Assembly (NCBI GenBank): GCA_916610825.1
Contig: OU744449.1
Location: 12,469,520-12,533,519 of the forward strand
Source of the DNA: Haliclystus octoradiatus
Lineage: Eukaryota > Cnidaria > Staurozoa > Stauromedusae > Haliclystidae
Reading direction: 5' to 3'
Length of the DNA stretch: 64,000 nucleotides
The position numbers and the translations under genes are program-made. Numbering within the stretch: the stretch's first letter is position 1; each line of letters begins with the position of its first letter. Below the pieces are notes generated by a model. It saw only the letters and a program-made list of their open reading frames with translations, was not told where the DNA came from and did not search any database. This document shows, piece by piece, positions 8,726-64,000 of the stretch.

Positions 8726-9069
8726 GGCATACCTTGATGTCACAAGGATGCCACATTGCATTTGAATGAGACAATTAGAAAATGTTATTGCACATGTAGC
8801 ACATGATAGTATGTAGTAGAGTGATATGCCCGGAATTCGCAAAAGCAAGATCTTCACGATTCTCAAAGAGGTAGCAACATGAAAATTCAAGAGCTTCTCA
8901 AAAGCAACTAGCAAGCTAGATCACGATGGCAAGAGTGATTGACACACCCAGCCCTTTGGGACATGCGCACACATACAAAGGGGTACTGTTACACTCACCG
9001 ACTCGTATTGCTTCAGTAGTCGATCCGCTAACCTGCTGCGGTTTTATCATTGCATCTTGTTCACTTCCG

Positions 9070-16700: not shown

Positions 16701-19700
16701 CAGTTGACTATATGTCATATTCAGTCTACTGGCAGATCACAAACAGTTGATTAACAGATCATGAGTACGGAATTTCTAACATTATTATTGTGAGATGTTT
16801 GTTTTGTTAATTCATGAGACTATTTATGACCGTATTTATGCAGTGAATGTTTATATTATATTTGCTAATATTATATTGTCCCTTTGAAAGCACATCCAAA
16901 TTGTTTTGTGATACCAATCATCATTTAAATGGCCCCTTTTCGGGTACAGTTTATGATATTTCCAAATGAAATTATTCATAGAAAGGGAATAGCTTTTCTA
17001 TGAATTATCACATTCCTTGTTTCAAGATGACAGACTTCTCAATTTCAAAGTAAATGAATGAATTCCAACTACTTATTTGCATTTAAATCAACAAATTTTG
17101 TTTCAAATTGAAGTCACAGATTAAAACTATTCAACATATTACTTTTCAGAATGCGAGACGTGCAATATTACTTTCTGGTACACCTGCATTATCGAGACCA
17201 GAGGAACTCTTCACACAGATTTTGGCTGTCAATAAAAGTTTGTTTCCTTCGTTTATCCCATTTGCAAAACGGTATTGCAATGCAACAAAGGTAAGATTGT
17301 TGAGTAAATATATTAAGAATGATGTTATCAGCAGGTACACATGTTAATTGACTTCCCTCAGAGTATTTATTGAAAATGCTCCAAATGCTGCTAATTAACT
17401 GAAAACAAAATCATTTGATGGTACATGCTTTGGTGATGAGATCTGAATAATGCTATATTTGTCAACGCTGGATGTATGGATCAATGTATAGTCAGTACCA
17501 CATGATATGATAACTATTATCAAGACCTTGTGTGTTAACTGTGTCGGAGCTGAATCACAAGATTGAATACACTGTTATGCACTTGGCTGCGAAGAAGTGT
17601 ATGTTTCTTATTTATACTAGAATCCTGTCTGCTAAAACATATCTCCCGCGAAAAAAGTTTATGAGTTCATGAACTGTTCATGATCTCATGGTTTTCTTTT
17701 AAAGGGGCTGTGCCGAATCCCTTGTCAGCAGCCGGTTTAATGTGAAACGGAAATTTGTATTAGCTTTATAACATTAATTAAATGATGTGAAATTATACTA
17801 GTTACTGTATTTCTTGCTTCAGTAGTTCTTACGTTGATTCCTCTCTAGAGCTTTCTCCTGCTTCCTTCTTTATTCCAATTCATTAAATGATAACAAATTC
17901 CCTATCCAAAATCTTTATTGAAAATCTCACCCATTTAGCTGAGTCTTCACAAGGCGAATTGATAGCTTATGGAATATGTTTTAACCCATGATAGAGTCTT
18001 GTGTTTGTTTTCTTAATGCAATCAATCAATTTATTTATTTTACCTCGCATTCAACTATATACATTATTTAGAAATCATGGTAAAATAAAATATACACTTG
18101 CGAATACCTTTGCTGTAATGAGACATCACTCTCACAACATGGTTGGATCTTGATATTTAAATGAAGCCTTTGAGTAAGGTTTTAGCAAAATCAGTTGACT
18201 CTTGACTTGATTAAAATTCAGGGGATACCATTTTCCTGCATGATCGTTTGCGAAGAAACATCTTGTGCGGTTCTTTGTTAGTTTATGTTCTGTTTTGCTC
18301 TTTTAGCCACAGCAATTTATTGTTTCATGTTGCTAAATTTCATTGATTTGAACATTTCTGGTAGAGATACTCAAATACATACTATTGATAGGATAATCCA
18401 TAGTTGAATTGTCGCTGGACCTGTCCATTGCAGCTTCAGCATATCATACGCTCCTAGATGTAAAATAGAAATTGAGTTCAATTGCACATTTCCTCGTATA
18501 TTTGTAATAAAGTTTTATGATACTCTACATCAGAAGGATTCAGTAAATACCTGGATGAGAATCTTTTAACATCATCATCTCTAACCAATAGGCAGTACTG
18601 TAGTGGGAATAATGAATGCTGTCAGCTGCAAATAACCACAGTAACATTGAGGGCAGGGCCGTTTCAAGACATTTTGGGCTGTAGGCACTTATATTGTTAG
18701 AAGGGCCTATTTTTAAAAAACATTTCTGGAACCTCATGGAAGTGTAGATGCAGACACCATACCGTCAATTAACTATATGCTAGATATTTGTATTTATCTA
18801 TCCTATCCAAAAGAACTCACTCTAAACTTTATTTTAAAAATGTTTGAAATCGAATTAACTATCTATAATTCATGGGTCAAATTTCAAAAATTAAGCACCA
18901 CATAAAATACAGTATGAACAGATCAATTTCGTATTAATAAACGTATATAAATTGAGATGCATCACATTCTCTCAATAAACGTAACTTAACATAAAAAAGC
19001 AATATTACTTTTGCAAAATAAAGTCTACTATTATAATGTTTAAATAGCTGCAAGATAATTTAGATAATAAAATATAATGAATTGAATTGGTGAATTATGA
19101 AAGTATGAAAGTAGTGTATAACACTGTAGGCCACAGGTACAGATATTAGTGGTCAAATAAAATTGGAATTCCCGGCTATATCATAACTCTTTTTTTCTTT
19201 AGTACCGGTACATAGTTTATTATATTGCCTTTTTCCTAGATTTTAGTTTGGCAAAATCATCAATTATATCATCGAAGTTTAATGAGTGTAAAAGTTCACT
19301 CTCGATGCTTAATACAGACAGAGATCCGAGTCTTTCTTGTGACATGGTTGACCTGAGACAATTTTTGATAATTTTTAGCTTTGAAAACGATCTTTCACCA
19401 GTACAATTTGAAACCATTATGGAAAGGTACATTCTTAAAGCGACTTCAACATTCTGGAATACTGCTACAATGTCTTGTTTATGTATAGTGGTATACATAA
19501 GTAATTCGTTTCTCAATTTACTTTTCAACTTCTCTGCTTATAAAAATTCTGGTTTCATGTAGGTTTTGAAGGACAAAAACTCACGAAATAATGATGGTGA
19601 TAAATCTATCAGAATCTTGTTGGTGATAAGTTTGGTACAAAATAACAACACAACTAAGTTTGCACAACTTTTCGACTGATTAGCTTCAGCCATTCTCAAG

Positions 19701-22700
19701 TGAATGCTTTTTTATTAATAATTAAGATATATATATATACATAAAAATTGTTTTCCCCTTGAGGGTAAAGTTACATTATGAAGAATATTTACAATATGAT
19801 ATTGATATCAGTAACAACAGTAACTATGGTAACTAGTCTAGATATATGTCTAATCCTTAGAGGAAATGCTGTATCATGAAATGCTTGCAGTTATTTGACA
19901 ACTGTGGCTCGGATGGAATCGCCTTGAACGTTTAATGTTGGTTTCAAATCTTGAATTGCCAGCATTTCATTCACGAGACAATCGAATTTATTTTTGCTCT
20001 TTTTATGATTTTAAAATGTTTTTCAAATTCATCAGTAGATATGCTGTGCTCTTGACGGACGTGTGTACCAAGGTTACCTTTGTTGTGTTCATCTATGCAT
20101 TCGTATAGGTGCGGGCATGTATAGCCGACATAGTCTTCTTCGCACAGACCACATTTAAAATGATATATAACGCATTGTTGGGTTAACAAATCTGGCTTCT
20201 CCTCACGGGTACTCAAGTCGTCGTTGAGCTTCTTACTATTAAAAATAGCGTTAAAATTTACACTTATTTTACAATTTAAACGGTTAAGTTCTTTCCTTGT
20301 TTCGTCGCATGATTGTTGATCTTTAAACGGTAAAACTATGCTAACATGTTTTATATTATTGTCTGGTAAAATTGGAGAATTAAAATCATTACTTGGCATT
20401 TTATTTAAAATAGAATTAAAAACACGGGGCGGATACTTAAGTTTACTAAAATTGTTAAAAAGCAAATTACATTCAATGTTAAAATCAGCTTCAGAGAAAC
20501 AAAGACGATGCGCTCTGTGAAGCATTTTCTTTAAAATACCAGTTTTATACCTTTGGTCTATGTGACTCTGATAATGTAAAAGTAGTCCTTTGTTTGTTGA
20601 TTTTCGGTGGACACTCGTTGATATTTGTGTGCCGGTATTGGTCATTTTGATTCCAAGAAAAGGTAGTTGTTTATTTTCCTCTAACTTAATCGTAAAGTTT
20701 ATTGACGAGTGTGCTGCATTCAGAATCGATAATAAATTTTCTGCTTCTTTTATATTTTTTACAATTGCCAAGGTGTCATCCACATAAATATGATAAATAT
20801 GATAAATCTTTATCATATTTAAAAACAAGATTGTCACAATGGAGTTCAAGTTCTTCATCCTCACATGATTGGATGTTCGAGAGAAAACCGAATCTATTTG
20901 ACAGTTCACCATACTTAAGGCGTTTCTTTGTGAGATCTTTCTTCAATTTACTAATAATAATATTAAAAGTCGTTGCCTTGAAATTTTCGCGAGGAGACAA
21001 AGCGATAATATCATTACGTTTCAGGCAAGTCTTTCATCGACGGAAGAATAATCTGATGCCCCACTGAATTGAGGTATACGTTTTGATCCTTGTAGTTTTT
21101 CACTAACATTGTTGAATGATTGTAAACTGTCGTTCCACAAGTGGGCCATAAATGTGATCTTGAAACGAAGAATAATTTGATATACACTGTGTGCTTTTAC
21201 CCTTGTAATCTCGTTTTCTTCTTCGCTTTCTGCAATATTACCAAGTTAATCCGTTATTACTGTGTAGCCTTTTTAGCGCCTTTGTCGCATCCTTTGCATG
21301 CATGCTGACCATCTGGTCTCTCTCAAACTTTTTACAACTAATAGCTTTTCACCCGAATTAGAGATAGCCTGTTTTAATAAATGCCACCTGTGAGTTGAAG
21401 CAGAAAAGAAATTGTACAGACTTTGTACAAAATTAAAGAATGCAACCGCTTCGTTACAGCTGCCTACAGCGCATTGGCCAACTAAGTTCAACAAATGAGC
21501 ACTGCACGGTACATACACAGCATGGGGACTTGTATACCTTGTACAGCCTGTACACCTTTATATTTCCCACTCATGTTCGCATCAGTATCATATGATTGTC
21601 TCTTTTTGACGTTGGTGAAAAAGTATCAAGGGTATTGGTAAATCGAGGCAGCTCATTTGATGTATATATGGTAGAGGCTGCGGTCGAAAAATAATTGCGT
21701 ATGATAGCGATTTTTTTATCAAAAAACTCAAAAAATTGTTGTGCAAGATTTGCCGCATTTGTATATGATGGTAACTTTTTTTCTGACTTGAGATTTAACA
21801 TTTTGGATACAGTAGAAAATAAAACGCGCTGGTTATTTTTATGTTCATCGATAACATTTGTATAAAAGTTAATTCTTGATTCTAGAATTACATTGCTGAC
21901 TTTTTTGCATTGATCAACGTACAATTCTCTATCAGTGGTAAGTCTGTTCCTTCGCCATCTACGTTCTAATCGTCTTCGTAACCTCTTTTCAATGCGTATA
22001 TCACTAGAGTACCATTGTGCTTTTGGTCTAATAGTTACAATGCGGTGTTTAATTGGTGCATGTTGGTCAAGCAAAGACTGTAATGTTTTATCATAAAGAT
22101 TAGCAAGGAATGACACATCATTGTATTGATCAAGGTTCATAAGAGAAGAGTTGATAATATCATTGAGTAAAAGATCTTTTGTCAATAGACTTTAATTTAC
22201 GATAGATAATTTCCTTTCTTTTGTGCGCTGGTTTCAATGCGTTTCCATAGCAAAGTGATTGTCTTAGTACTTTTTAAAAGATCTTGTTCCCATTGTTCTT
22301 TCTCTTTCCGTTTTATGTGTTTCTGCCATCCACTTGAGGGTTTCTTGGCCATCTCTGTAGATTATAAAGTTAATTAGTTCCAATCTTCAATGTAGCAAAT
22401 TGTATTAAAATATAACGAACAATAAAAATACAAGTATTACTTTCTCGCACGTATAATATGCTCAAATGATGGGAATGTTCTGATGTTGCAATGGAGTTCA
22501 TTGATTTGTGTCTTGGGAAATCATCACAACAAGAAATGTCACAACAAGGAAAGAGTTCAGAATCAAATCAAAAAGAGAAATGAAATATAATACTTTTTTA
22601 ATCTAAAGATGTTACTTTACGCCACAGTACAGTATATTAAATTAAACCACAGTATAGTCATTTTATTTTCGACATTTGATATATATATTTATTTTAAATA

Positions 22701-40700: not shown

Positions 40701-43700
40701 TTAGGCATACAATATTATTCCAATTTCAAAATACAGAAATAAAACCATCTACAGTGCACTGTGCAAATATGCTGTTCAATCGATAAAAATATTAGTGAAA
40801 ATTTGTATGCATTATATTTAAGGCAATTGGCTTTACTTGTCTTGGTCAGTTATTTACTACAGTATAGTTCTTTCAATGATGGTAAACTATGCTCTATTAT
40901 AATTTTTTTGGTTAAACTTATAGGCATTGATTCAAGCTGAAGATCGAGTTTATCGCATTGGACAAAAGAATGCTGTAATGATTATCTATCTTGTGGCAAA
41001 GAAAACAGCTGATGATTACATATGGTATGTTGCTGAATATTAAAACAACAATTCGTGTTCTAACCCCAAATTTTGAGGTTCAATCCAGGGGGTCGATTTT
41101 GATTTGTACTCACAACGTTTCGACTATATCAGTTTTGAATGAAACCCTTTTTGATGGTCAAAGATGTAAGCTGTTTCAATTCTCTTTGTACTTGTACGTT
41201 GGATCATCCGTTTCTTATAAACAGGGTCTTACATCTTGTGAACCTTTTGCCAACTGTTCATTAATGGCTCCTGAGCTGTTAATAACGTGTCCAGTTGTGT
41301 TAGATACTGAGTGGAAAATTATGATTATTTTTCTTTCTATTATGTGGTCCCTTGAACAACTCTAATCTCAATAATAAAAAATCTATTTAGTTTTACAGTC
41401 TACTTAAGTTGTTCTGCAATTTTCAACTAGGCCATTGATCCAAGAGAAACTGAAAATTTTGTCAACAGCTGGATTGGGACAGAATAAAAGCTTTGATGTC
41501 AAAGTCTCTATGTATAAGGTGATTTTGATTAATGTTATGGTCTATTGTAGATTGTCTGTTAGTAAAACATAAATGTATTTGATTGTGATTTGTCAATGTT
41601 AGATATATATGAGACACCCTTATCCAGATGAAAACCCCTCTGAAAACGTTTGTGAAAAAGACCATTTAGCTTTCATGAACTGTAGAAGAACTGTTCATAA
41701 ATTGTTTGCAAGGTGTTCATAAACAGTTTTTAGCGTTCATAAGGTTCATTTCTATAAAAACAGTTCATGGTAACGTTTGTGAAAAACATACCATTTTACG
41801 TTCATGAACTGTTCATGAATTGTTTGTAAGATATCCATGAACAGTTTGTGAGCGTTCATAAAGTTCATTACTCTGAAAATAGTTCATGAAAACGTTTGTG
41901 ATAATAGACCATTCAATGCTCATGAGCTGTAGAAGAACTGTTCATGAATTGTTTGCAAGGTGTTCATGAACAGTTGGTGAATGTTCATAAGGTTCATTTC
42001 TATGAAAATAGTTCATGAAAACGTTTGTGATAATAGACCAGTCAACGCTCATGAACTGTAGAAGAACTGTTCATGAATTGTTTGCAAGGTGTTCATGAAC
42101 AATTGGTGAGTGTTCATAAAGTTCATTTCTATGAAAACAGTTCATGAAAACGTTTGTGATAATAGACCAGTCAACGCTCATGAACTGTAGAAAAACTGTT
42201 CATGAATTGTTTGCAAGGTGTTCATGAACAGTTGGTGAGTGTTGATAAAGTTCATTTCTATGAAAACAGTTCATGGTAACGTTTGTGAAAAACAGACCAT
42301 TTTACGTTCATGAACTGTTCATGAATTGTTTGTAAGATGTCCATGAACAGTTTGTGAGCGTTCATAACGTTCATTCCTCTGAAAATAGTTCATGAAAACG
42401 TTTGTGATAATAGACCATTCAGCGCTCATGAACTGTAGAAGAACTGTTCATGAATTGTTTGCAAGGTGTTCATGAACAGTTGGTGAGTGTTCATAAGGTT
42501 CATTTCTATGAAAACAGTTCATGAAACGTTTGTGATAATAGACCAGTCAACGCTCATGAACTGTAGAAGAACTGTCCATGAATTGTTTCCAAGGTGTTCA
42601 TGAACAATTGGTGAGTGTTCATAAGGTTCATTTCTATGAAAACAGTTCATGAAAACGTTTGCGATGATAGACCATTCAACGCTCATGAACTGTAGAAGAA
42701 CTGTTCATGAATTATTTGCAAGGTGTTCATGAACAGTTGGCGAGTGTTCATAAGGTTCATTTCTATGAAAACAGTTCGTGAAAACGTTTGTGATGATAGA
42801 CTATTCAACGCTCATGAACTGTAGAAGAACTGTTCATGAATTGTTTGCAAGGTGTTCATGAACAGTTGGTGAATGTTCATAAGGTTCATTTCTATGAAAA
42901 TAGTTCATGAAAACGTTTGTAATAATAGACCAGTCAACGCTCATGAACTGTAGAAGAACTGTTCATGAATTGTTTGTAAGATGTCCATGAACAGTTTGTG
43001 AGCGTTCATAAAGTTCATTCCTCTGAAAATAGTTCATGAAAACGTTTGTGATAATAGACCATTCAATGCTCATGAGCTGTAGAAGTACTGTTCATGAATT
43101 GTTTGCAAGGTGTTCATGAACAGTTGGTGAATGTTCATAAGGTTCATTTCTATGAAAATAGTTCATGAAAACGTTTGTGATAATAGACCAGTCAACGCTC
43201 ATGGACTGTAGAAGAACTGTTCATGAATTGTTTGCAAGGTGTTCATGAACAATTGGTGAGTGTTCATAAGGTTCATTTCTATGAAAACAGTTCATGAAAA
43301 CGTTTGTGATAATAGACCAGTCAACGCTCATGAACTGTAGAAAAACTGTTCATGAATTGTTTGCAAGGTGTTCATGAACAGTTGGTGAGTGTTCATAAAG
43401 TTCATTTCTATGAAAACAGTTCATGAAAACGTTTGTGAAAAACAGACCATTTTACATTCATGAACTGTTCATGAATTGTTTGTAAGATGTCCATGAACAG
43501 TTTGTGAGCGTTCATAAAGTTCATTCCTCTGAAAATAGTTCATGAAAACGTTTGTGATAATAAACCATTCAACGCTCATGAACTGTAGAAGAACTGTTCA
43601 TGAATTGTTTGCAAGGTGTTCATGAACAATTGGTGAGTGTTCATAAGGTTCATTTCTATGAAAATAGTTCATGAAAACGTTTGTGATAATAGACCAGTCA

Positions 43701-46484
43701 ACGCTCATGAGCTGTAGAAGAACTGTTCATGAATTGTTTGCAAGGTGTTCATGAACAGTTGGTGTATTTTCATAAGGTTCATTTCTATGAAAATAGTTCA
43801 TGAAAACGTTTGTGATAATAGACCAGTCAACGCTCATGAACTGTAGAAGAACTGTTCATGAATTGTTTGCAAGGTGTTCATGAACAATTGGTGAGTGTTC
43901 ATAAGGTTCATTTCTATGAAAACAGTTCATGAAAACGTTTGTGATAATAGACCAGTCAACGCTCATGAACTGTAGAAAAACTGTTCATGAATTGTTTGCA
44001 AGGTGTTCATGAACAGTTGGTGAGTGTTGATAAAGTTCATTTCTATGAAAATAGTTCATGAAAACGTTTGTGATAATAGACCAGTCAACGCTCATGAACT
44101 GTAGAAGAACTGTTCATGAATTGTTTGCAAGGTGTTCATGAACAATTGGTGAGTGTTCATAAGGTTCATTTCTATGAAAACAGTTCATGAAAACGTTTGT
44201 GATAATAGACCAGTCAACGCTCATGAACTGTAGAAAAACTGTTCATGAATTGTTTGCAAGGTGTTCATGAACAGTTGGTGAGTGTTGATAAAGTTCATTT
44301 CTATGAAAACAGTTCATGGTAACGTTTGTGAAAAACAGACCATTTTACGTTCATGGACTGTTCATGAATTGTTTGTAAGATGTCCATGAACAGTTTGTGA
44401 GCGTTCATAAAGTTCATTCCTCTGAAAATAGTTCATGAAAACGTTTGTGATAATAGACCATTCAACGCTCATGAACTGTAGAAGAACTGTTCATGAATTG
44501 TTTGCAAGGTGTTCATGAACAGTTGGTGAGTGTTCATAAGGTTCATTCCTATGAAAACAGTTCATGAAAACGTTTGTGATAATAGACCAGTCAACGCTCA
44601 TGAACTGTAGAAGAACTGTCCATGAATTGTTTCCAAGGTGTTCATGAACAATTGGTGAGTGTTCATAAGGTTCATTTCTATGAAAACAGTTCATGAAAAC
44701 GTTTGCGATGATAGACCATTCAACGCTCATGAACTGTAGAAGAACTGTTCATGAATTATTTGCAAGGTGTTCATGAACAGTTGGCGAGTGTTCATAAGGT
44801 TCATTTCTATGAAAACAGTTCGTGAAAACGTTTGTGATGATAGACTATTCAACGCTCATGAACTGTAGAAGAACTGTTCATGAATTGTTTGCAAGGTGTT
44901 CATGAACAGTTGGTGAATGTTCATAAGGTTCATTTCTATGAAAATAGTTCATGAAAACGTTTGTAATAATAGACCAGTCAACGCTCATGAACTGTAGAAG
45001 AACTGTTCATGAATTGTTTGTAAGATGTCCATGAACAGTTTGTGAGCGTTCATAAAGTTCATTCCTCTGAAAATAGTTCATGAAAACGTTTGTGATAATA
45101 GACCATTCAATGCTCATGAGCTGTAGAAGAACTGTTCATGAATTGTTCGCAAGGTGTTCATGAACAGTTGGTGAATGTTCATAAGGTTCATTTCTATGAA
45201 AATAGTTCATGAAAACGTTTGTGATAATAGACCAGTCAACGCTCATGAACTGTAGAAGAACTGTTCATGAATTGTTTGAAAGGTGTTCATGAACGATTGG
45301 TGAGTGTTCATAAGGTTCATTTCTATGAAAACAGTTCATGAAAACGTTTGTGATAATAGACCAGTCAACGCTCATGAACTGTAGAAAAACTGTTCATGAA
45401 TTGTTTGCAAGGTGTTCATGAACAGTTGGTGAGTGTTCATAAGGTTCATTTCTATGAAAACAGTTCATGAAAACGTTTGTGAAAAACAGACCATTTTACG
45501 TTCATGAACTGTTCATGAATTGTTTGTAAGATGTCCATGAACAGTTTGTGAGCGTTCATAAGGTTCATTTCTATGAAAATAGTTCATGAAAACGTTTGTG
45601 ATAATAGACCAGTCAACGCTCATGAACTGTAGAAGAACTGTTCATGAATTGTTTGTGAGGTGTTCATGAACAATTGGTGAGTGTTCATAAGGTTCATTTC
45701 TATGAAAACAGTTCATGAAAACGTTTGTGAAAAACAGACCATTTTACGTTCTTGAACTGTTCATGAATTGTTTGTAAGATGTCCATGAACAGTTTGTGAG
45801 CGTTCATAAAGTTCATTCCTCTGAAAATAGTTCATGAAAACGTTTGTGATAATAGACCATTCAATGCTCATGAGCTGTAGAAGAACTGTTCATGAATTGT
45901 TTGCGAGGTGTTCATGAACAATTGGTGAGTGTTCATAAGGTTCATTTCTATGAAAACAGTTCATGAAAACGTTTGTGATGATAGACCATTCAACGCTCAT
46001 GAACTGTAGAAGAACTGTTCATGAATTGTTTGCAAGATGTTCATGAACAGTTCATGAGGGTTCATAAAGTTCATTAATCATTCCTGGATAGTGAATGATT
46101 TCATTTAATTTTCGCAACGATAGTCAATATATTTTGGTTGAAGAAATTGTGAGATAAGGAACCATCATATCTAAACATGTACAATACTTTCTGAAGGATT
46201 TAAATGCTGATCATTTATCTTTCACACAAATAGTTTGTGATAAATAGGATACAACTTGTTTGTTTTCTGTTGCATTCTGCCATCAACAAAACTAACTATT
46301 TACACTTTGCAGTGTGATCATTCCATCATTCACCAGCTTCAATTTTCTGTTACAGGATCCACATCAAAAACAGCTTTTTGATTATTTTCAAGAATTCATT
46401 GATTTAGAAGGAGATAAATTAATGGCTGAAATGAACTCAGAACCAGTTGAGGAAGTTCCCCCAAAGAAACCAAAACTAATGTAA
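13723..46484 (+). CDS. SMARCAL1: SMARCAL1/HARP annealing helicase, 3' part (15 exons)
   Basis: SNF2-family ATPase that rewinds RPA-coated DNA at stalled forks (family knowledge). Exons: 13,723-13,894; 14,063-14,213; 14,650-14,811; 15,220-15,285; 17,150-17,290; 36,470-36,549; 36,788-36,839; 37,424-37,498; 38,161-38,228; 38,690-38,789; 39,241-39,364; 40,469-40,527; 40,924-41,024; 41,431-41,518; 46,356-46,484 (TAA). All join in phase and give 521 residues. Motifs, counted from the first complete codon: [19 protein letters not shown] (70-77, Walker A), DESHFLKN (162, DEAH box), [11 protein letters not shown] (~190), FIVFAHH (335-341), AAGVGVTLTAA (~392), [11 protein letters not shown] (420-430). 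DESHFLKN separates it from ZRANB3. The end is Lys/Pro-rich. The N-terminal RPA-binding and HARP exons were not found; they lie left of the window or in unrecognised form. Catalytic motifs look intact despite a 19 kb intron full of transposons. Confidence 0.93.
15640..16510 (+). mobile_element. Non-LTR retrotransposon fragment (CR1/L2-like), endonuclease end and linker
   Basis: Lies in the intron 15,286-17,149. Reads [14 protein letters not shown], then [18 protein letters not shown], the end of an APE-type endonuclease (S-D-H position). After a frame break comes the linker found between endonuclease and reverse transcriptase (VRLAQQPGL..., about 15,876-16,260). No reverse transcriptase remains. 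An ATG/GAT microsatellite at ~16,505-16,522 may be the 3' tail. Confidence 0.6.
16531..16747. repeat. 43-bp tandem repeat, five copies
   Basis: TTGACTATATGTCATATTCA plus GTCTACTGGCAGATCACAAA recurs five times with a period of 43-44 bp and almost no divergence. It lies in the SMARCAL1 intron between the DESH and SGTP exons. Confidence 0.9.
17291..18645. other. Intronic stretch without recognised elements
   Basis: Start of the 19.2 kb SMARCAL1 intron (17,291-36,469). Holds one isolated TTCATGAACTGTTCATGA motif (~17,668) of the satellite family described at 41,650. Otherwise I see nothing. Confidence 0.5.
19640..20810 (-). mobile_element. Penelope-like element, 5'-truncated
   Basis: One long minus-strand ORF (main part 20,800-19,971) starts at the reverse-transcriptase catalytic motif YVDDT. 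It continues through the thumb (LPFLGIKM) and a linker, and ends with a GIY-YIG endonuclease ([18 protein letters not shown], with a downstream E-C-I-D-E-H segment). RT plus GIY-YIG in this order defines Penelope elements. Everything upstream of YVDDT is gone, as in 5'-truncated insertions. It interrupts the hAT transposase, so it is younger than the hAT copy. The ORF stays open for ~270 codons. Confidence 0.85.
21603..22195 (-). mobile_element. Non-LTR (CR1/L2-like) fragment inside the hAT element
   Basis: A 204-codon minus-strand ORF reads [20 protein letters not shown], then [15 protein letters not shown], then [16 protein letters not shown]. This is the linker between endonuclease and reverse transcriptase in CR1/L2-type LINEs. 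Neither end domain is present. Boundaries follow from where the hAT reading resumes ([16 protein letters not shown] near 21,600). Confidence 0.7.
22361..23177. other. AT-rich hAT 5' region
   Basis: Non-coding interior of the hAT element, with a T run at ~23,050-23,070 and an (AT)n tract at ~23,084-23,100. Confidence 0.5.
23578..23952 (-). pseudogene. P-element/THAP9-like transposase C-terminal fragment
   Basis: A 124-codon ORF has [20 protein letters not shown] and, later, DHI and [12 protein letters not shown]. The RGGL-x-x-P-S block followed by a helical tail with LR-x-H-H is seen at the C-terminus of P-element-like transposases. No upstream domains are found. Identification rests on short motifs only. 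Confidence 0.4.
23953..24820. other. Intronic stretch without recognised gene
   Basis: Several short ORFs on both strands, none with a family motif. It leads into the 252-bp satellite. Confidence 0.4.
24822..27668. repeat. 252-bp satellite array, about 11.5 copies
   Basis: GCATGTTAAC recurs at 24,824, 25,074, 25,316, 25,568, 25,820, 26,072, 26,324, 26,566, 26,818, 27,060, 27,312 and 27,562. The spacing is 252, or 242 where a TGTGTTTGGC-type block is missing. Copies are nearly identical. Read on the minus strand, every monomer contains the last ~34 codons and stop of the HECT-like gene that lies intact-looking just to the right ([13 protein letters not shown]... to KKHC-stop). A diverged piece reappears at 29,221-29,330. 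Confidence 0.95.
27571..27966 (-). pseudogene. HECT-like (G2E3-type) C-terminal fragment
   Basis: Minus-strand reading: [20 protein letters not shown], then [13 protein letters not shown]. After a frame change it reads [20 protein letters not shown], then [12 protein letters not shown] and DFSNMLEE to a stop near 27,571. The FLxFVTGS block followed by AHxC-x(2)-xLxxP is the C-terminal part of HECT-like domains in G2E3-type and transposon-borne proteins; the catalytic-type Cys is present. The frame change makes it a remnant. The adjacent satellite monomers copy its end. Confidence 0.55.
27967..29930. other. Intronic stretch, no recognised gene
   Basis: Minus-strand ORF 28,521-28,724 shows no family motif. 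29,221-29,330 is a diverged satellite fragment (GAATTGTTTTCGAACG, GAGGATCATTTAAATACT). Confidence 0.4.
29943..30290 (-). pseudogene. Ulp1/C48-type cysteine protease fragment
   Basis: Minus-strand blocks: [20 protein letters not shown], then in another frame [20 protein letters not shown]. These carry the His (NHW), Asp (LDS) and Q...DC Cys positions of Ulp1-like SUMO-protease folds. Such domains are common in large DNA transposons, where they are thought to process element proteins. A frameshift near 30,130 separates the two blocks. It lies in the same orientation as the HECT-like fragment and the Mutator-like transposase fragment. Confidence 0.55.
30523..30546. repeat. (TTTA)n microsatellite
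   Basis: About five TTTA units at the downstream (minus-strand 3') end of the LINE fragment; on the minus strand this reads (TAAA)n and may be the LINE tail. Confidence 0.75.
30547..31467 (-). mobile_element. CR1/L2-like LINE, 3' part with internal RT deletion
   Basis: The minus strand begins with the RT fingers ([24 protein letters not shown]), then [17 protein letters not shown]. After a break it continues at the C-terminus ([41 protein letters not shown]). The palm with the catalytic YADD box is missing between ~31,160 and 31,120, and frames change several times. The element ends in a (TAAA)n tail. Confidence 0.7.
31695..33340 (-). mobile_element. Gypsy-type pol remnant: RT end, RNase H, integrase
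   Basis: Minus-strand order: the end of an RT palm ([19 protein letters not shown], near 33,220) directly joined to an RNase H start ([11 protein letters not shown], ~33,170) with [12 protein letters not shown]. Next come a tether region, a zinc-binding CNICQSVD, and the integrase core start ([20 protein letters not shown], ~32,510). A further integrase block ([16 protein letters not shown], ~32,230) precedes a tail ending APVWLADY (~31,745). Stops and frameshifts are frequent. The YxDD part of the RT is absent. Confidence 0.7.
33341..34750. other. Intronic stretch, one unassigned minus-strand ORF
   Basis: ORF 34,166-33,942 (Asp-rich, [17 protein letters not shown]) has no recognisable domain. 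It could be an upstream part of the Gypsy element or the tail of the Mutator-like gene. Otherwise nothing. Confidence 0.3.
34752..35260 (-). pseudogene. Mutator-like transposase fragment
   Basis: Minus-strand reading from ~35,200 gives [19 protein letters not shown]. The ORF 35,108-34,752 follows, with [20 protein letters not shown] and [19 protein letters not shown]. The pair GxGKLT...LQxxYG and KCLxGxTQNxNxSFNxxxW is the C-terminal half of the invertebrate Mutator-like transposase family. The catalytic part is not recognisable, and frame breaks are present. Confidence 0.5.
35261..36469. other. Intronic stretch before the next SMARCAL1 exon
   Basis: Minus-strand ORF 36,062-35,775 ([20 protein letters not shown]) is open for 95 codons but unrecognised. 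It may belong to the Mutator-like element. The branch/acceptor region of SMARCAL1 exon 6 ends the stretch. Confidence 0.35.
38505..38600. repeat. Small cluster of TTCATGAAC repeats
   Basis: Several TTCATGAACAG/CTGTTCATGAA words in ~90 bp in the SMARCAL1 intron 38,229-38,689, of the same family as the array at 41,650-46,075. Confidence 0.7.
41650..46075. repeat. 129-bp satellite array in the last SMARCAL1 intron, about 34 copies
   Basis: The repeat unit is about 129 bp, built from TTCATGAAC-type palindromic words (TTCATGAACAGTTGGTGAGTG, GTTCATGAAAACGTTTGTGA, GCTCATGAACTGTAGAAGA, TTCATGAATTGTTTGCAAGG). A second unit type (GAAAAACAGACCATTTTACG, TCCATGAACAGTTTGTGAGC) alternates at wider spacing. 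Private variants at 42,541-42,810 recur at 44,585-44,853, and those at 43,430 at 45,475, an offset of ~2,044 bp. This is therefore a higher-order repeat of about 16 units. It fills nearly all of the intron 41,519-46,355. Confidence 0.95.
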
Positions 46485-58034: not shown

Positions 58035-60120
58035 AACGATTGCGCTTCAAAATATATGCAAAACAGCTGAATAAATAAAATCACACAAAAATAACATCAT
58101 TAAAAATCTATATAATCCATGAATATTAAATAGATGAAGTGCATTCGCACAAAATTTGAATTTCTCAAACCTAGTCATCGAGTAGAGACGTTCGATACCT
58201 CTCTAAAGGATTTACCCACGGTTTCAGCATGGTCTAAGCGTATTTCAAAATGATGGTCACAAGTTTGGTATACAATAAAACTTACCGAAATCCAAGCATA
58301 GACTATAGAGATTTGATTTTTGATTTACAAATACTTGAAAAAAGAGCAGATGAACCAATATTTAATAATTCCACAGCATTAATAATCAAGTAATTGAGCG
58401 AAAACAGGCCACAAATATATGCCAGCAAACTTAAAACGAAGAAGTAATAGGTATTTTATGAAGTGATAAAGAGGTGTTTGAAAATGTCGAGTAACGTCTT
58501 TTTACATCAAGATTGATGGATAGATAATTTTATTTTCAAGGCAATATTGGATGTCTGAATTGTTTTAGAAAGCATTGAAAAAGTCTTGAAAAAGTTCTTT
58601 CATGTTTCACAAACAATGGAAACGTGTCATGGCTGATTAAGGGGAAATGATCATTCCGGGTCATGCAAGGCGTCAATCGATGGGGGCACGCACTCTGGTG
58701 GAGATCATAGTCTTTGACTTCGTTCTTCAATGTGATTTCTGAAGTATTAGCCCCCGTAAAACCCAACAAATTTACGTGGCAGTAGGCGTGGCATCAAAAA
58801 CTGAAGCAAAATTACGAGGAATAGATTTCACATGCTCATAATGAAGTATTGTTTTCAGAACATACTGTCCTGAACTTAGCATAGCAACCCGCATAATTAT
58901 AGCTGTCGCTGTTTGTCTTGATTGACTGGAGGGAACTTTTAATTATGAAATAAATAAAGACTTTGGATTAATTATGCATGATTTCTGTTGACTTTACCAC
59001 TAAGATAACAATCTAACCTGATCTGAGAACTTGCGTTGCACAACTACGACCTTCGCTCGAACCATAGTCACTAGAATATATTCTAGTGACTATGCTCGCA
59101 CCCTATGTATCTCTCTTGTATCCAGCCGCTAAATTTGCGTGACCGTAATAACAGAGAAGACAAGGAATGATACAGAAATGATGGGGCTGGTTTATGTACT
59201 GTATATATCTGGGGAGAAGGCAATACGAGCTTTACCTGGTTCTTTGAAAACATCTACAGGAACCGTAGCTAATCAGTAGGACCATAGAGATGCAGTCATC
59301 AAACATGTACCACGACGTCATTTCATCCCTCGTTATTTTCAAATGATGGTGATATTAAAGCTTATTTGATTCAAGTAGCAATCGTAAACCATTTAAAGGC
59401 TTCAATGGAGATTCGTAAATGTTCTAAGTTTGTACGACTCTATAATTAGTGTAGGCTATAATTACCAACTAAATACAGTCGAAAACATGCCATTCAGGGT
59501 TCGATTTTCAAATTACAGCGTAGCAAAGTTTTTCCAAGACAACAGATTTTTCTAATCGATCTTCACTGCAGAGATTAAGGCCTTTAAGTAAAATATTTTA
59601 AAATTTAGTTCAATACGCAAAATGAAATACCATGGAAATACTTACTACAGTACGTAGATATCAGCCACGTGAGTGTGAACGCTGTGTGTAGACTGTAGTA
59701 AGTTAAACATTTGAATGGAAAAACATCAAATTCTTAACAACGCCCGAAACAATGTCACATTTTACACGATATTATACTTGAGCTTATATGCGTACTACAT
59801 ATTCAGGTACGTATTTGTATCCAGATTTAGCTGAAATTTTGGTTACTTATTCGTCATCTGCGGTTTGATATGATTGGTTGATAGTGGATTTGTTATAGGC
59901 TTAAAGAGATTATACAATGAGACTGAAAAATCTAGCTCTGTTACGCTTATTTTTATCAAGCATCTAATCTATAGAAAATCTAAGTGATTGTAGGTAAAGG
60001 GAAAACCAAACACGTGTTTTCGTAAAGAACGACGATAGAATGTTGTACTGATGAAGTTATACAATATCCAGTCAGTGTATATATACAATCCTGAAAAGTT
60101 TTAATTCATATAGTTAAAGT
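58035..60120. promoter_or_regulatory. Divergent intergenic region of the PCBP-like and galactosyltransferase genes
   Basis: About 2.1 kb between two start codons facing away from each other. It must hold both 5' UTRs and promoters. No clear TATA/Inr pair was identified. It contains a perfect 32-bp palindrome (59,063-59,094). A minus-strand ORF at 58,536-58,769 shows no family motif. Confidence 0.5.
59063..59094. repeat. Perfect 32-bp palindrome
   Basis: CATAGTCACTAGAATA is followed directly by its reverse complement, with no loop. It lies in the divergent intergenic region, ~1.0 kb from each start codon. Confidence 0.95.
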
Positions 60121-62773
60121 ATGCTTAATGTGCCTGAGTTTGTTACGTTAGTAGTGGTAATAATACAGGTGTTAATTATCATATTATACATTACAGATGG
60201 TAATATATTAGACTTTTCAAACCACCACGAGGCAGGTAGTTTACAAGTAGTTCACGAAAAAGATGTAAAAAATGAATTACGAAATATATTAAATGAAAAT
60301 GAACAGAAGCTATCTTGGTTTAGAAACAATTCAATTGATTTAATTGGAGATAATCAACTGTCGATGATATTAATAGTAACAAGCGCTCCGGAAAGATTGG
60401 CTAGAAGAAACGCTATTAGAGATACGTGGTGGAATCAATGCAAACACGAAAAGGTGAATATAATTACTGCTCTTCCGATCACTTTCCAACTAATCAACGA
60501 ACTTCCACAAACTAAACTCGGGATTAGACTATTTATTTAGTATAGTATAGGGGTTAACTGAAATTAATCATCGATCTGCAGGTCAATATGGAAATCGAAC
60601 TAGTAGTATAGTCCCATAGAAAAATCAATCAATCATATCGACACTTTCACTGGAAGATAGTTATTGGAAATAGTATAGAATTATTCAACATGATATTCTG
60701 AACAAATTTAAGTCAAAAAATATCATAAAATGTGCACCGGAACTAGTTCCAGGCTCTTGTTAAAACTCAGATACAAATAAAAAGAGCCTGGAACTAGTTC
60801 GGGTGCACAAAACATTTCATTTGTTCAGAATATCATGTTGAATAATTCTAGACTACTTCCAATAACTATCTTCTAGTCAATCGGAATCGTGATATTATCG
60901 AGAGTGATATTATAAGCGGGTAAAATTAGTTGAATTTCATAGAGAGCGGTCACTGGTTTCTGAAAAATCATGATAATAGGCTGGTCGTGATATTAACCGA
61001 GGTGATATTAACGGGGTTTCACTGTACACAGATTGTAGATTTGCGATCGAGCAGCGGTCAATTCTAAATTATATTGGCCACTCCGTGTCTCCTGACAGTA
61101 ATAGCGGAGGAAAGAACGACGTGAGAGCAACGGATAATTGCTTTACTGATGCATTAAAATACACAATTCGTCTTAAACATATTTTGTCCTCGCGAAAAGG
61201 AGTAAATTAAGAAATTAAGTCTAATAATAACTCCAATGATATAATGCACCCGAATATCATACTAATAAATCCATAATTAAAGTATTTTATAGTCCATTGA
61301 ATAGAAATTTCTTCTGCAATTAAATTAGACTTCATTATACCGAGTAGCGACAAATAAAACACACGATAATCTGCAATGGTTTCGATTTATTCTAAAATCA
61401 TCGTCAGGCAAGTAAAAAAAAGAGAGAACAGGTTTTACGTCGTATTTATAGTTAGGAAGTAAATCAAAGCCCTGCTGAACAGCAACGAAATTTAAAATAA
61501 TCAAGATCGCCGTGGTAATGTCCTCTGTATAAATCTGGATTATTCGTTGTCGACGTTGATCAATGTTATCATTAGTATTAGTAATTATATTTTGTATTGT
61601 ATCAATGGAATGTATTACTGGAAATTGGAAACAATAATGTGGATGCAATAAATAGATACAAAAATGAATTTAAAGATTGGGAGCAATACCTAGTTCACTT
61701 GTTTTTATGCCTTAACGTTGATAATACTGTTCTATTGTGTGATCTAGGTGAAGTGCATTTTCTTTACTGATGGCCTGGGTTCTACTTTACAAAAAAAACA
61801 ATTACTGAAAGAGCAGTCTCAGTATCATGACATGCAAGTTCAACCTCTTTTAAGTGGTGCAGAATTCGGAGAACGATTCCTATATCAAATTCAATGGACA
61901 TTTCTTAATTATAAATTTGATTATTTGGTTCGCCTTGATGATGACATGTTCTTATGCTTGGAGAGATTAATATCCAGTATTCCATTGATACCAAAAACTA
62001 ATTATTTGAGCGGTTGGTTCCACTGTGAAAAAGATTTAGTTCGACCAGAAGAAAGTTTTCTTGTAATATCATCAGATGTTGTACAGAAATACGTTTCACA
62101 AGTTCAACGTAAAATGTTATGTCACCCATTTGCTGATCAACAAATAGCATTATGGTCACAAAAACTAGAATTAAATCAATTAATATATTACCATGACAAC
62201 AGAATACACCATCATCCGCCTGCTTCGTTTATGAAACAATTTCTTCATAAGAAAAATATTTGTGAACATTACATTAGCGTACATGGGACATACCCCAAAG
62301 AAATGAGACTATTTTGGAATAATAGAGGACCATCAACGTATCAAAGGCAAGAACCAAGACCTTTGTCAATAGTTTGTAAACAACCGCCCGTTATGAAATG
62401 GAGAGCATTTGGAAGTTTATGGAAATATGAACCAAAATTATGTTTTTGGAAACCAAAATGGAACTTACAAAGACATAATACAGTTGGTAAAGGATATTAT
62501 GTCGGTAGAGAAGGGAATAGAGGAACACAGGGTAATATTTATGAAGATTTAGATAAATTAATGACCAAAGAATCTACTGATAAAAAAGAGGATAAATTAT
62601 TACACCACACAGAAACCAGTAGATCCATTGCGAAGGATTTAAAAAATAAATTAATTATAGAAAATAACGGAGATTTATTTGCTGAAGTGATGGAATTTTT
62701 AGAATCAAAGAAGAAAAGCAAATCATTTTTAAGAAATTTACCAATGACAAGAAAAGACCCATTTTCATATTAA
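60121..62773 (+). CDS. Beta-1,3-galactosyltransferase family (GT31) type II membrane protein
   Basis: Two exons, 60,121-60,453 and 61,748-62,773, join in phase (AAG|GTG) to 452 aa ending at TAA. Residues ~7-25 are a single hydrophobic signal-anchor (VTLVVVIIQVLIIILYI), placing the enzyme in the Golgi membrane with a lumenal catalytic domain. GT31 motifs: LIVTSAPERLARRNAIRDTW (~84-103), LVRLDDDMFLCLERL with the metal-binding DDD at 175-177, YLSGWFHC, and CHPFADQQIALW (~236). The family transfers Gal or GlcNAc from UDP-sugar in beta-1,3 linkage; the exact acceptor cannot be told. A basic, low-complexity tail of ~150 residues after the catalytic domain (KKEDKLLHH, ESKKKSKSFLRN) is unusual for the family. 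The start is chosen because the anchor begins seven residues later. Confidence 0.88.
60651..60876. mobile_element. Foldback MITE in the galactosyltransferase intron
   Basis: The left arm (60,651-60,756: GGAAGATAGTTATTGGAAAT ... GAACTAGTTCCAGGCTCTT) pairs with the right arm (60,784-60,876) around a ~25-nt loop, giving ~95-bp arms. The inner AGAGCCTGGAACTAGTTC segment also occurs at ~9,426-9,445, so this is a dispersed family. No clear target duplication. Confidence 0.8.
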
Positions 62774-63711
62774 ATTAAGGTCCTCTTTGGTAGAATTAAA
62801 AAGTGAAAGCTTGGATACTTTGAGTGGACGTCAAATCAAAGCAGTGCAAATGAAATTCGTCAAGTTGGATTCCACGCTAGAAAAATCTACAAATCTATAG
62901 CGTAAGGTTGCTAAGCTGCCAATATGATGCCAAATCTGTATCATTCATGGGAATCATTGAAAATCATGCTTATTAATCATGGTATTAGTACTACGTAAAG
63001 GAAAGATACTATCTGATCTTCCAAAGAAAAGCATGCTAGCAAACCAAGACACTTCAAGACAAAATAAGACAAAATAGGGTTAAAAAAATATTTTTCGATA
63101 ATTAAATATTATTACTGTTGTTTAATTAAATTTCTATGACATTGGTTAAAAGTCTATATTAAATGATTAAATGGTATCAAAAGTCAATTGATGTACTGTA
63201 TCACGTAATTTTATTCAAATTTAAAAATGTTTCATCTTTGCGTTGCATTCCATTCTTGATTGTCCTTCAGCGGCATGGTGATCTGGACATCGCGTTACCA
63301 AAACACAAACTCGTTGTCACTGGTATGATTATTGTTCAATCAATTAATTCAAACTTCTATGTTAACTTTAGTTCCTTTCTTTCTAAATGATGCTCTGTTT
63401 GAGTCTCTGTCCGGTTGCATAACCATCTCGACAGGAGAACGACCGTATTGCGCTGTAAATCTGGATATGTAAGAGAATATATCTGTATTAAGCAGACAAC
63501 TGACACAGAAAGGAGAGACAATTGTGCGGGAGCCATCCACAATTGGCTGGTGATGGCAACACCTCTATAGTGGAGATTGATACAAAATGCTAGACATTGG
63601 TTGCTTTCTATACCGATAAACGCGAAAATATGCGTGTATGTGGTCTAGTTTCCACTGTTTTCTCATTCGGCTTTCAAGTGAGATATTTGAGTTGCGTATA
63701 TAACGAGTTAC
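62774..63711. other. Downstream region of the galactosyltransferase gene
   Basis: No gene recognised. Minus-strand ORF 63,540-63,349 reads SCLLNTDIFSYISRFTAQYG but I cannot assign it. GCGTATATAACG at 63,694-63,705 is TATA-like, close upstream of the hammerhead candidate. Confidence 0.35.
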
Positions 63712-63832
63712 ATAATAAAAGTCAGAGAATCAGACAGTCATGGAGTCGATATTGAATAGATTGCCTGATGATCGCCTCGGCGTGAAACTTCAAGTAGCAA
63801 ACATGACTGTCTGATTCTCTGACTTTTATTAT
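63712..63832 (+). ncRNA. Candidate type I hammerhead ribozyme between 31-nt inverted repeats
   Basis: Core positions on the plus strand: CTGATGA at 63,765-63,771, GAAA at 63,784-63,787, cleavage triplet GTA at 63,794-63,796. Stem I: TTGC (63,761-63,764) pairs with GCAA (63,797-63,800). It then extends, after an internal loop, into a perfect 31-bp stem (63,712-63,742 with 63,802-63,832). Stem II: CGC/GCG with a CUCG loop and a U-U mismatch at its base. Stem III: A-U, C-G, U-A closed by a UCA triloop, the miniature stem III known from metazoan and Penelope-associated hammerheads. All invariant core nucleotides are present. Self-cleavage is predicted after 63,796. Confidence 0.7.
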
Positions 63833-64000
63833 TTAAAGCTCTGCTATATTTTGCATTGAGCCCTATGTTCAATCAGTAAGACAACGTTTTACAAATAATG
63901 AGTTACATCTGTTCTCCAGTTGTGGGTAGGATGGGTTTCGATATTTTAATTTCTGTCTTACATAACAAAAACAAAATACGTTAACTCTCCTTTTCCATAT
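63833..64000. other. Right window edge, nothing recognised
   Basis: AT-rich, no ORF or repeat seen. Confidence 0.4.

Follow-up and report, generated by a model that had tools for sequence, protein, structure and literature searches.

Is a complete hammerhead core in the loop of a long hairpin enough to make a ribozyme? The question is raised by a locus near the end of a 64,000-nucleotide (nt) stretch of the staurozoan Haliclystus octoradiatus (assembly GCA_916610825.1, contig OU744449.1, positions 12,469,520 to 12,533,519 of the forward strand; this whole stretch is called here the window, and all positions are given in its own numbering). Two perfectly complementary arms there enclose a loop that carries all the fixed nucleotides of a hammerhead. 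An earlier note, written from the letters alone, had read the locus as a hammerhead fold wrapped in inverted repeats and had proposed a small ribozyme-bearing mobile element or a retained RNA-processing site. Its observation was confirmed in part and its interpretation partly supported; the proposed element or processing site was not demonstrated. Our preferred reading, to which we attach a probability of roughly 0.6, is that an inverted duplication arose recently downstream of a galactosyltransferase-like gene. The motif in its loop would be either a product of chance or the decayed remnant of a minimal type I hammerhead, and in its present setting it is most likely inactive. What the analysis establishes directly is the inverted repeat, the motif and the competition between predicted folds; the origin, age and transcription of the hairpin, as well as the inactivity of its motif, are what we infer from them.

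A Perfect Inverted Repeat

The 31-nt inverted repeats are indeed perfect, pairing at 31 of 31 positions within the last 300 bases of the window (Table 1); one C/A mismatch followed by three more pairs extends them outward. In 100 shuffled windows, with a gap of up to 200 allowed, the longest perfect inverted repeat reached 18 nt (mean 12.6), and because the shuffled maximum is only 18 nt, the 31-bp hairpin lies beyond chance. The sequences flanking the two arms differ, which makes a fold-back artefact of the assembly unlikely. The inner 26 nt of the left arm have no further copy within the window at up to 3 mismatches. Around the hairpin, a search for target-site duplications of at least 3 bp at symmetric ends or of at least 5 bp at asymmetric ends found none; TA stands at both arm ends, where a TA duplication is indistinguishable from palindromic arm ends.

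In our reading, a stretch of 31-35 nt was copied in reverse-complement orientation to a site some 60 nt away. A single template-switch event during replication could have done this, or the arms could be the terminal repeats of a tiny element resembling a miniature inverted-repeat transposable element (MITE). Template switching is described as making perfect RNA stems in a single event, microRNA (miRNA) loci included (PMC8794818). The hairpins it produces are perfect reverse-complement repeats tens of bases apart, as is the case here, and can seed new hairpin RNAs (PMC8794818); for the present hairpin, the mechanism is suggested by the modern sequence rather than by a comparison with an ancestral state. 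MITEs and foldback elements resemble the locus in their short terminal inverted repeats, their short middle and the TA at both arm ends; they differ from it in that no second copy was seen and no target-site duplication beyond TA/AT.

Table 1. Features of the hairpin locus and its surroundings, in window positions.
Feature	Position	Strand	Remark
Left arm of the inverted repeat, perfect over 31 nt (34/35 out to 63708)	63712-63742	+	
59-nt loop	63743-63801	+	GC 44% against 34% for the window
Helix I, 5' strand, TTGC	63761-63764	+	
CTGATGA core (C3-A9)	63765-63771	+	
Helix II: U·U mismatch 10.1/11.1 (T63772, T63783), then CGC/GCG (63773-63775 / 63780-63782), 4-nt loop	63772-63783	+	
GAAA (G12, A13, A14, A15.1)	63784-63787	+	
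Helix III: 3 bp (A-U, C-G, U-A; ACT/AGT at 63787-63789 / 63793-63795), triloop	63787-63795	+	pair probability about 1% in the hairpin
Predicted scissile step A17 / G1.1 (T16.1 = 63795, A17 = 63796)	63796-63797	+	cleavage inferred; position from sequence
Helix I, 3' strand, GCAA	63797-63800	+	
Right arm of the inverted repeat, perfect over 31 nt (34/35 out to 63836)	63802-63832	+	
Galactosyltransferase-like gene	exons 60121-60453 and 61748-62773, GT...AG intron	+	joined product against Pfam Galactosyl_T, E 3.4e-07
Second minimal hammerhead-like motif, no helix III	61371-61411	-	2.4 kb from the loop motif, in the intron of the galactosyltransferase-like gene

The Hammerhead-Like Motif in the Loop

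The complete core that had been claimed is present. All fixed hammerhead nucleotides occur in the loop in type I order (C3 U4 G5 A6 N7 G8 A9, G12 A13 A14, A15.1-U16.1, H17), with helices I, II and III of 4, 3 and 3 bp. The three stems that had been described can be drawn as well, with TTGC/GCAA, CGC/GCG closed by a 4-nt loop, and a 3-bp stem with a triloop, but the description passed over a U·U mismatch in helix II at the pair adjacent to the core (10.1-11.1). Helix II counts 0 bp if drawn flush with the core and 3 bp if shifted inward by one base on each side. Nor are the 31-nt arms the extension of stem I that they had been taken for, since an 18/1 internal loop (63743-63760 on the 5' side, 63801 on the 3' side) separates them from helix I.

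How much the U·U matters can be judged from published hammerhead curation, which discarded candidates mispaired beside the core (PMC3088659). In the loop motif, the pairs adjoining the core can form in helices I and III, but 10.1-11.1 is U·U, so that this rule would discard it. The same source describes natural hammerheads with U10.1-U11.1 and reports that U·U at this place supports more cleavage than any other mispair (PMC3088659), so the mismatch loses some of its force as a disqualifier. Because the paper holds both the rejection rule and the natural cases, we take the U·U to lower activity and not to exclude it.

Predicted Folding

Folding predictions are dominated by the hairpin, be it as RNA or as DNA. 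The RNA of 63700-63845 folds at -61.7 kcal/mol, shuffled versions at -28.9 on average (z -8.6; none of 200 shuffles was as stable), with similar results for RNA of the opposite strand (z -9.5) and for DNA (z -10.4). For the 121-nt hairpin, the minimum is -56.8 kcal/mol and the hammerhead structure, at -49.8, is less stable by 7 kcal/mol; its helices have pair probabilities of 0.004-0.04. The loop taken alone also favours a different fold (-7.0 versus -4.0 for the hammerhead), and it is because the loop prefers other folds that we consider the motif most likely inactive in place.

The duplication would give, as DNA or RNA, a highly stable hairpin closed by a loop of 59 nt. Its transcript, if there is one, would probably serve as a double-stranded-RNA substrate, as a precursor of hairpin small interfering RNA (siRNA) or of miRNA type, rather than cleave itself. 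One may then ask whether the locus is a miRNA or hairpin-siRNA gene, with a stem of about 35 bp cut by RNase III enzymes and a loop whose sequence is irrelevant. The 31-bp stem continued by a mismatch and 3 bp, its extreme predicted stability and the long-form miRNAs described in the sponge Amphimedon (PMC6211395) would suit such a gene; the loop of 59 nt is long for it, no Rfam miRNA family was matched at the hairpin site, and perfect pairing fits a recent neutral duplication equally well. We consider this explanation unlikely.

Covariance Models and Exact Patterns

The earlier note had proposed a hammerhead covariance model as a check, and this check gave it no support. At gathering score, Rfam returned 0 matches in the whole 64-kb window. 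With lax thresholds on 251 bases around the site, five matches appeared, and the only hammerhead among them, RAGATH-1-hammerhead, reached 13.6 bits (E 9.6), its threshold being 56.3; it was outscored by SECIS_1 (14.6 bits) and tied with the unrelated STnc420. A selenocysteine element at the hairpin was rejected, 14.6 bits being far from the SECIS_1 threshold of 35. Over the whole window with E up to 10, there were 57 matches, none at the hairpin site and none a hammerhead. One has to keep in mind that minimal hammerheads may score low in Rfam generally, and that these scans ran without a positive control for them.

Copies were also sought by exact pattern in collections of viral and prokaryotic contigs, which hold little animal DNA and whose zeros, therefore, say little about an animal repeat. 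A 20-nt arm pattern had no match in either the viral or the genome contigs, and the loop and core patterns had none in the viral ones. A pattern of the paired inner arms was likewise absent from the viral contigs but matched 11 loci among the genome contigs; we set these aside as unrelated, the outer arms agreeing at 3-10 of 21 positions per side in all 11. Five of these loci (L004, L006, L007, L009, L011) lie on five contigs of a single Lachnospiraceae metagenome-assembled genome (SUG1588) and represent a hairpin family of their own, GGACAGTCATG...CATGACTGTCC. A hammerhead consensus presumed to be common in invertebrates, TTGCCTGAYGA...GAAACGTTGC, was absent from the viral contigs; a looser version had a single viral match (L012), discarded as its surroundings look protein-coding by eye and Rfam finds no hammerhead at 8880-9030 of that contig.

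Chance Expectation and a Second Motif

How often would such a motif be met by chance in a window of this kind? A type I motif at least as good (helices of 4/3/3, core-adjacent mismatch in helix II allowed) occurred 5 times in 300 dinucleotide-shuffled windows. When types I and III and more registers of helix II were admitted, the number of shuffled windows with a motif, out of 200, was 13 for 4/3/3, 46 for 3/3/3 and 79 for 3/3/2. The real window has one such place at each of these three settings, always the loop motif. Given the counts under looser rules, a reader at liberty to pick the shape will come upon one in many windows.

A second motif lies on the opposite strand near position 61407 (Table 1). 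It reads TTGC-CTGACGA-(T)-GATTT...AAATC-GAAA-CCA-TT-GCAG, the T in brackets being an extra base between A9 and helix II, and has TTGCCTGAYGAT in common with the loop motif; outside the core, the two share only short matches. Among the 32 CTGANGA sites of the window, it is the only one besides the loop motif with GAAA within 50 bases and a helix II of at least 3 bp. TTGC precedes CTGANGA at two of the 32 sites, and both then carry helix II, GAAAC and the complement of helix I. Of 300 shuffled windows, 35 contained at least one minimal motif, and 2 of these at least two. After both motifs had been seen, a pattern was fitted to them; it turned up 3 times in 1000 shuffles, never two in one. Rfam, run on 61330-61450 with E up to 10, found no hammerhead family. 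The helix-III-less layout is that of the minimal hammerheads of Penelope-like elements (PLEs) as described in PMC7761336 and PMC11167929, from which the extra T sets it apart; its relation to the loop motif and to dispersed hammerhead fossils is suggestive only.

Possible Descent from Known Hammerheads

These motifs lead to an explanation that overlaps with the "decayed" half of our own. The loop motif may be a genuine, possibly decayed minimal type I hammerhead from a PLE or an animal retrozyme, around which the perfect hairpin would have formed later or independently, and which would at best cleave slowly after A63796. Descent from a hammerhead is a tentative possibility, which we hold clearly less probable than our preferred reading. 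It agrees with the complete set of core nucleotides, with the natural occurrence of U10.1-U11.1 and with reports that animal genomes contain minimal type I hammerheads by the thousands, dispersed and with a helix III that is weak or missing (PMC7761336, PMC7229834), to which the two TTGC-preceded sites, rare in shuffles, may be added. The mispair at 10.1-11.1 is a rejection criterion in PMC3088659; moreover, neither motif has Rfam support in our scans without a minimal-hammerhead control, and the two are alike only in their core and short matches, that at 61407 having its extra T.

Comparison with the known systems is likewise divided. The minimal type I hammerheads of PLEs and Terminons share with the loop motif the type I order, the intact core, the weak helices and a dispersed location in non-coding animal DNA (PMC7761336). 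They usually lack the nucleotides of helix III, and those of PLEs lie in pseudo-long terminal repeats; the loop motif differs in its 3-bp helix III with a triloop, its U·U at 10.1/11.1 and its perfect outer hairpin, and no PLE was seen adjacent to it. With the canonical type I hammerheads of animal retrozymes, it has in common the type I order, a small size and a low GC content. As described in PMC7229834, retrozymes occur as short tandem repeats, 150-450 bp in size, and show loop-loop contacts. The hairpin has no tandem copy upstream: in 60000-64000, which covers the downstream side only to the window end, the one tandem repeat is a short, unrelated array (63099-63149). The window holds 168 bases of DNA beyond the hairpin, so an array further downstream would fall outside it, as would a PLE, whose RT/GIY-YIG ORF is to be expected on that side. 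Within the window, a 323-aa open reading frame (ORF) on the minus strand at 19971-20942 has a weak reverse-transcriptase match (RVT_1, E 0.016) and is by eye possibly Penelope-like, which speaks for descent; it is the nearest ORF of this kind, and it lies 43 kb away.

Genomic Context

The window reads as an animal-like nuclear genome. The hairpin lies about 0.94 kb 3' of the stop codon of the galactosyltransferase-like gene, and on the plus strand at 62773-63765 there is no ORF of at least 90 aa. The sole AATAAA past that stop codon is at 63714, inside the left arm, preceded by five ATTAAA variants at 62795-63171; judging by these signals, the hairpin could lie in, or at the end of, the 3' untranslated region of the gene.

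The intron of the same gene contains, at 60646-60880, a nested hairpin with 62-nt arms that are 94% complementary and an inner perfect inverted repeat of 19 bp; Rfam scores it at 35.8 bits for mir-3116, under the threshold of 65. Elsewhere, the window encodes an SNF2 exon, a THAP ORF and a hAT ORF; the reverse-transcriptase-like ORF lies beside a hAT dimerisation ORF (19220-19537). A satellite occupies 41677-46137, with units of about 129 bp and some spacings of 119 bp; near-identical copies 2044 bp apart suggest a higher-order repeat. A large inverted repeat is found at 1-2232, its arms (1-1014 and 1226-2232) matching in five blocks of 90-99% complementarity.

Weighing the Evidence

In favour of a recent inverted duplication with a probably inactive motif, we count the perfect arms with their different flanks, the lack of a further copy in the window, the fold competition, the low Rfam scores and the shuffle counts, together with the presence of another hairpin-rich element in the intron of the neighbouring gene. 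The letters of the loop would accordingly be read as chance, or as a decayed minimal type I hammerhead of the sort dispersed in animal genomes.

Several points weigh against this reading. The fixed core letters are intact, and a similar motif stands nearby at 61407. When the 51 nt of 63755-63805 are folded in isolation, helix II (0.78-0.81) and helix I (0.38-0.47) are predicted to form, helix III staying at about 0.01. Folding programs leave out the tertiary contacts of hammerheads; since these are not modelled, and since the PLE hammerhead tested in PMC11167929 cleaved only when its protein was present, a poor predicted fold is not decisive. For hammerheads of PLEs, the same authors also refer to self-cleavage at 3-25 mM Mg2+ (PMC11167929). 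With regard to origin, the absence of a target-site duplication of the sizes searched fits a template switch, and a MITE with a TA target site is possible too. Finally, a motif of this type confined to the 59-nt loop was obtained in 0 of 300,000 shuffled loops at 4/3/3 and in 5 of 300,000 at 3/3/2 (type I, both strands). That chance is an unlikely author of the motif, as had been argued, holds within this loop and less so across the window, where the shuffles yielded comparable motifs in 5 of 300 and, under the loosest rules, in up to 79 of 200. The conjunction of motif and hairpin is the strongest point for the earlier note, and its weight depends on the number of windows and of motif kinds that were read.

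The same conjunction, improbable by chance, is what would recommend a functional unit, mobile or RNA-processing and of small size, whose type I hammerhead would tip a long perfect extension of helix I and, by cleaving, open the loop of a double-stranded RNA. The 18/1 internal loop and a best predicted fold devoid of the ribozyme tell against it, as does the lack of a second copy, both in the window and among exact patterns in the collections poor in animal DNA; we find it very improbable. Its most developed form we hold to be just as doubtful: helix I of a type I ribozyme would pass through the internal loop into the 31-bp duplex, cleavage after A63796 would open the loop of the double-stranded RNA, and the locus would be the first known ribozyme-tipped hairpin element, with its origin in dispersed minimal hammerheads such as that at 61407.

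We know of no system that joins hammerhead self-cleavage with a double-stranded-RNA hairpin, and none is evident among the papers found on hammerheads with inverted repeats and MITEs, as judged by titles and the openings of abstracts. Were the ribozyme active, self-cleavage would here be joined to such a hairpin. If it is inactive, as we think most likely, the locus shows that 64 kb of sequence will easily yield a match to a short ribozyme consensus, and that a ribozyme claim of this kind should be preceded by shuffles and an assessment of fold competition.
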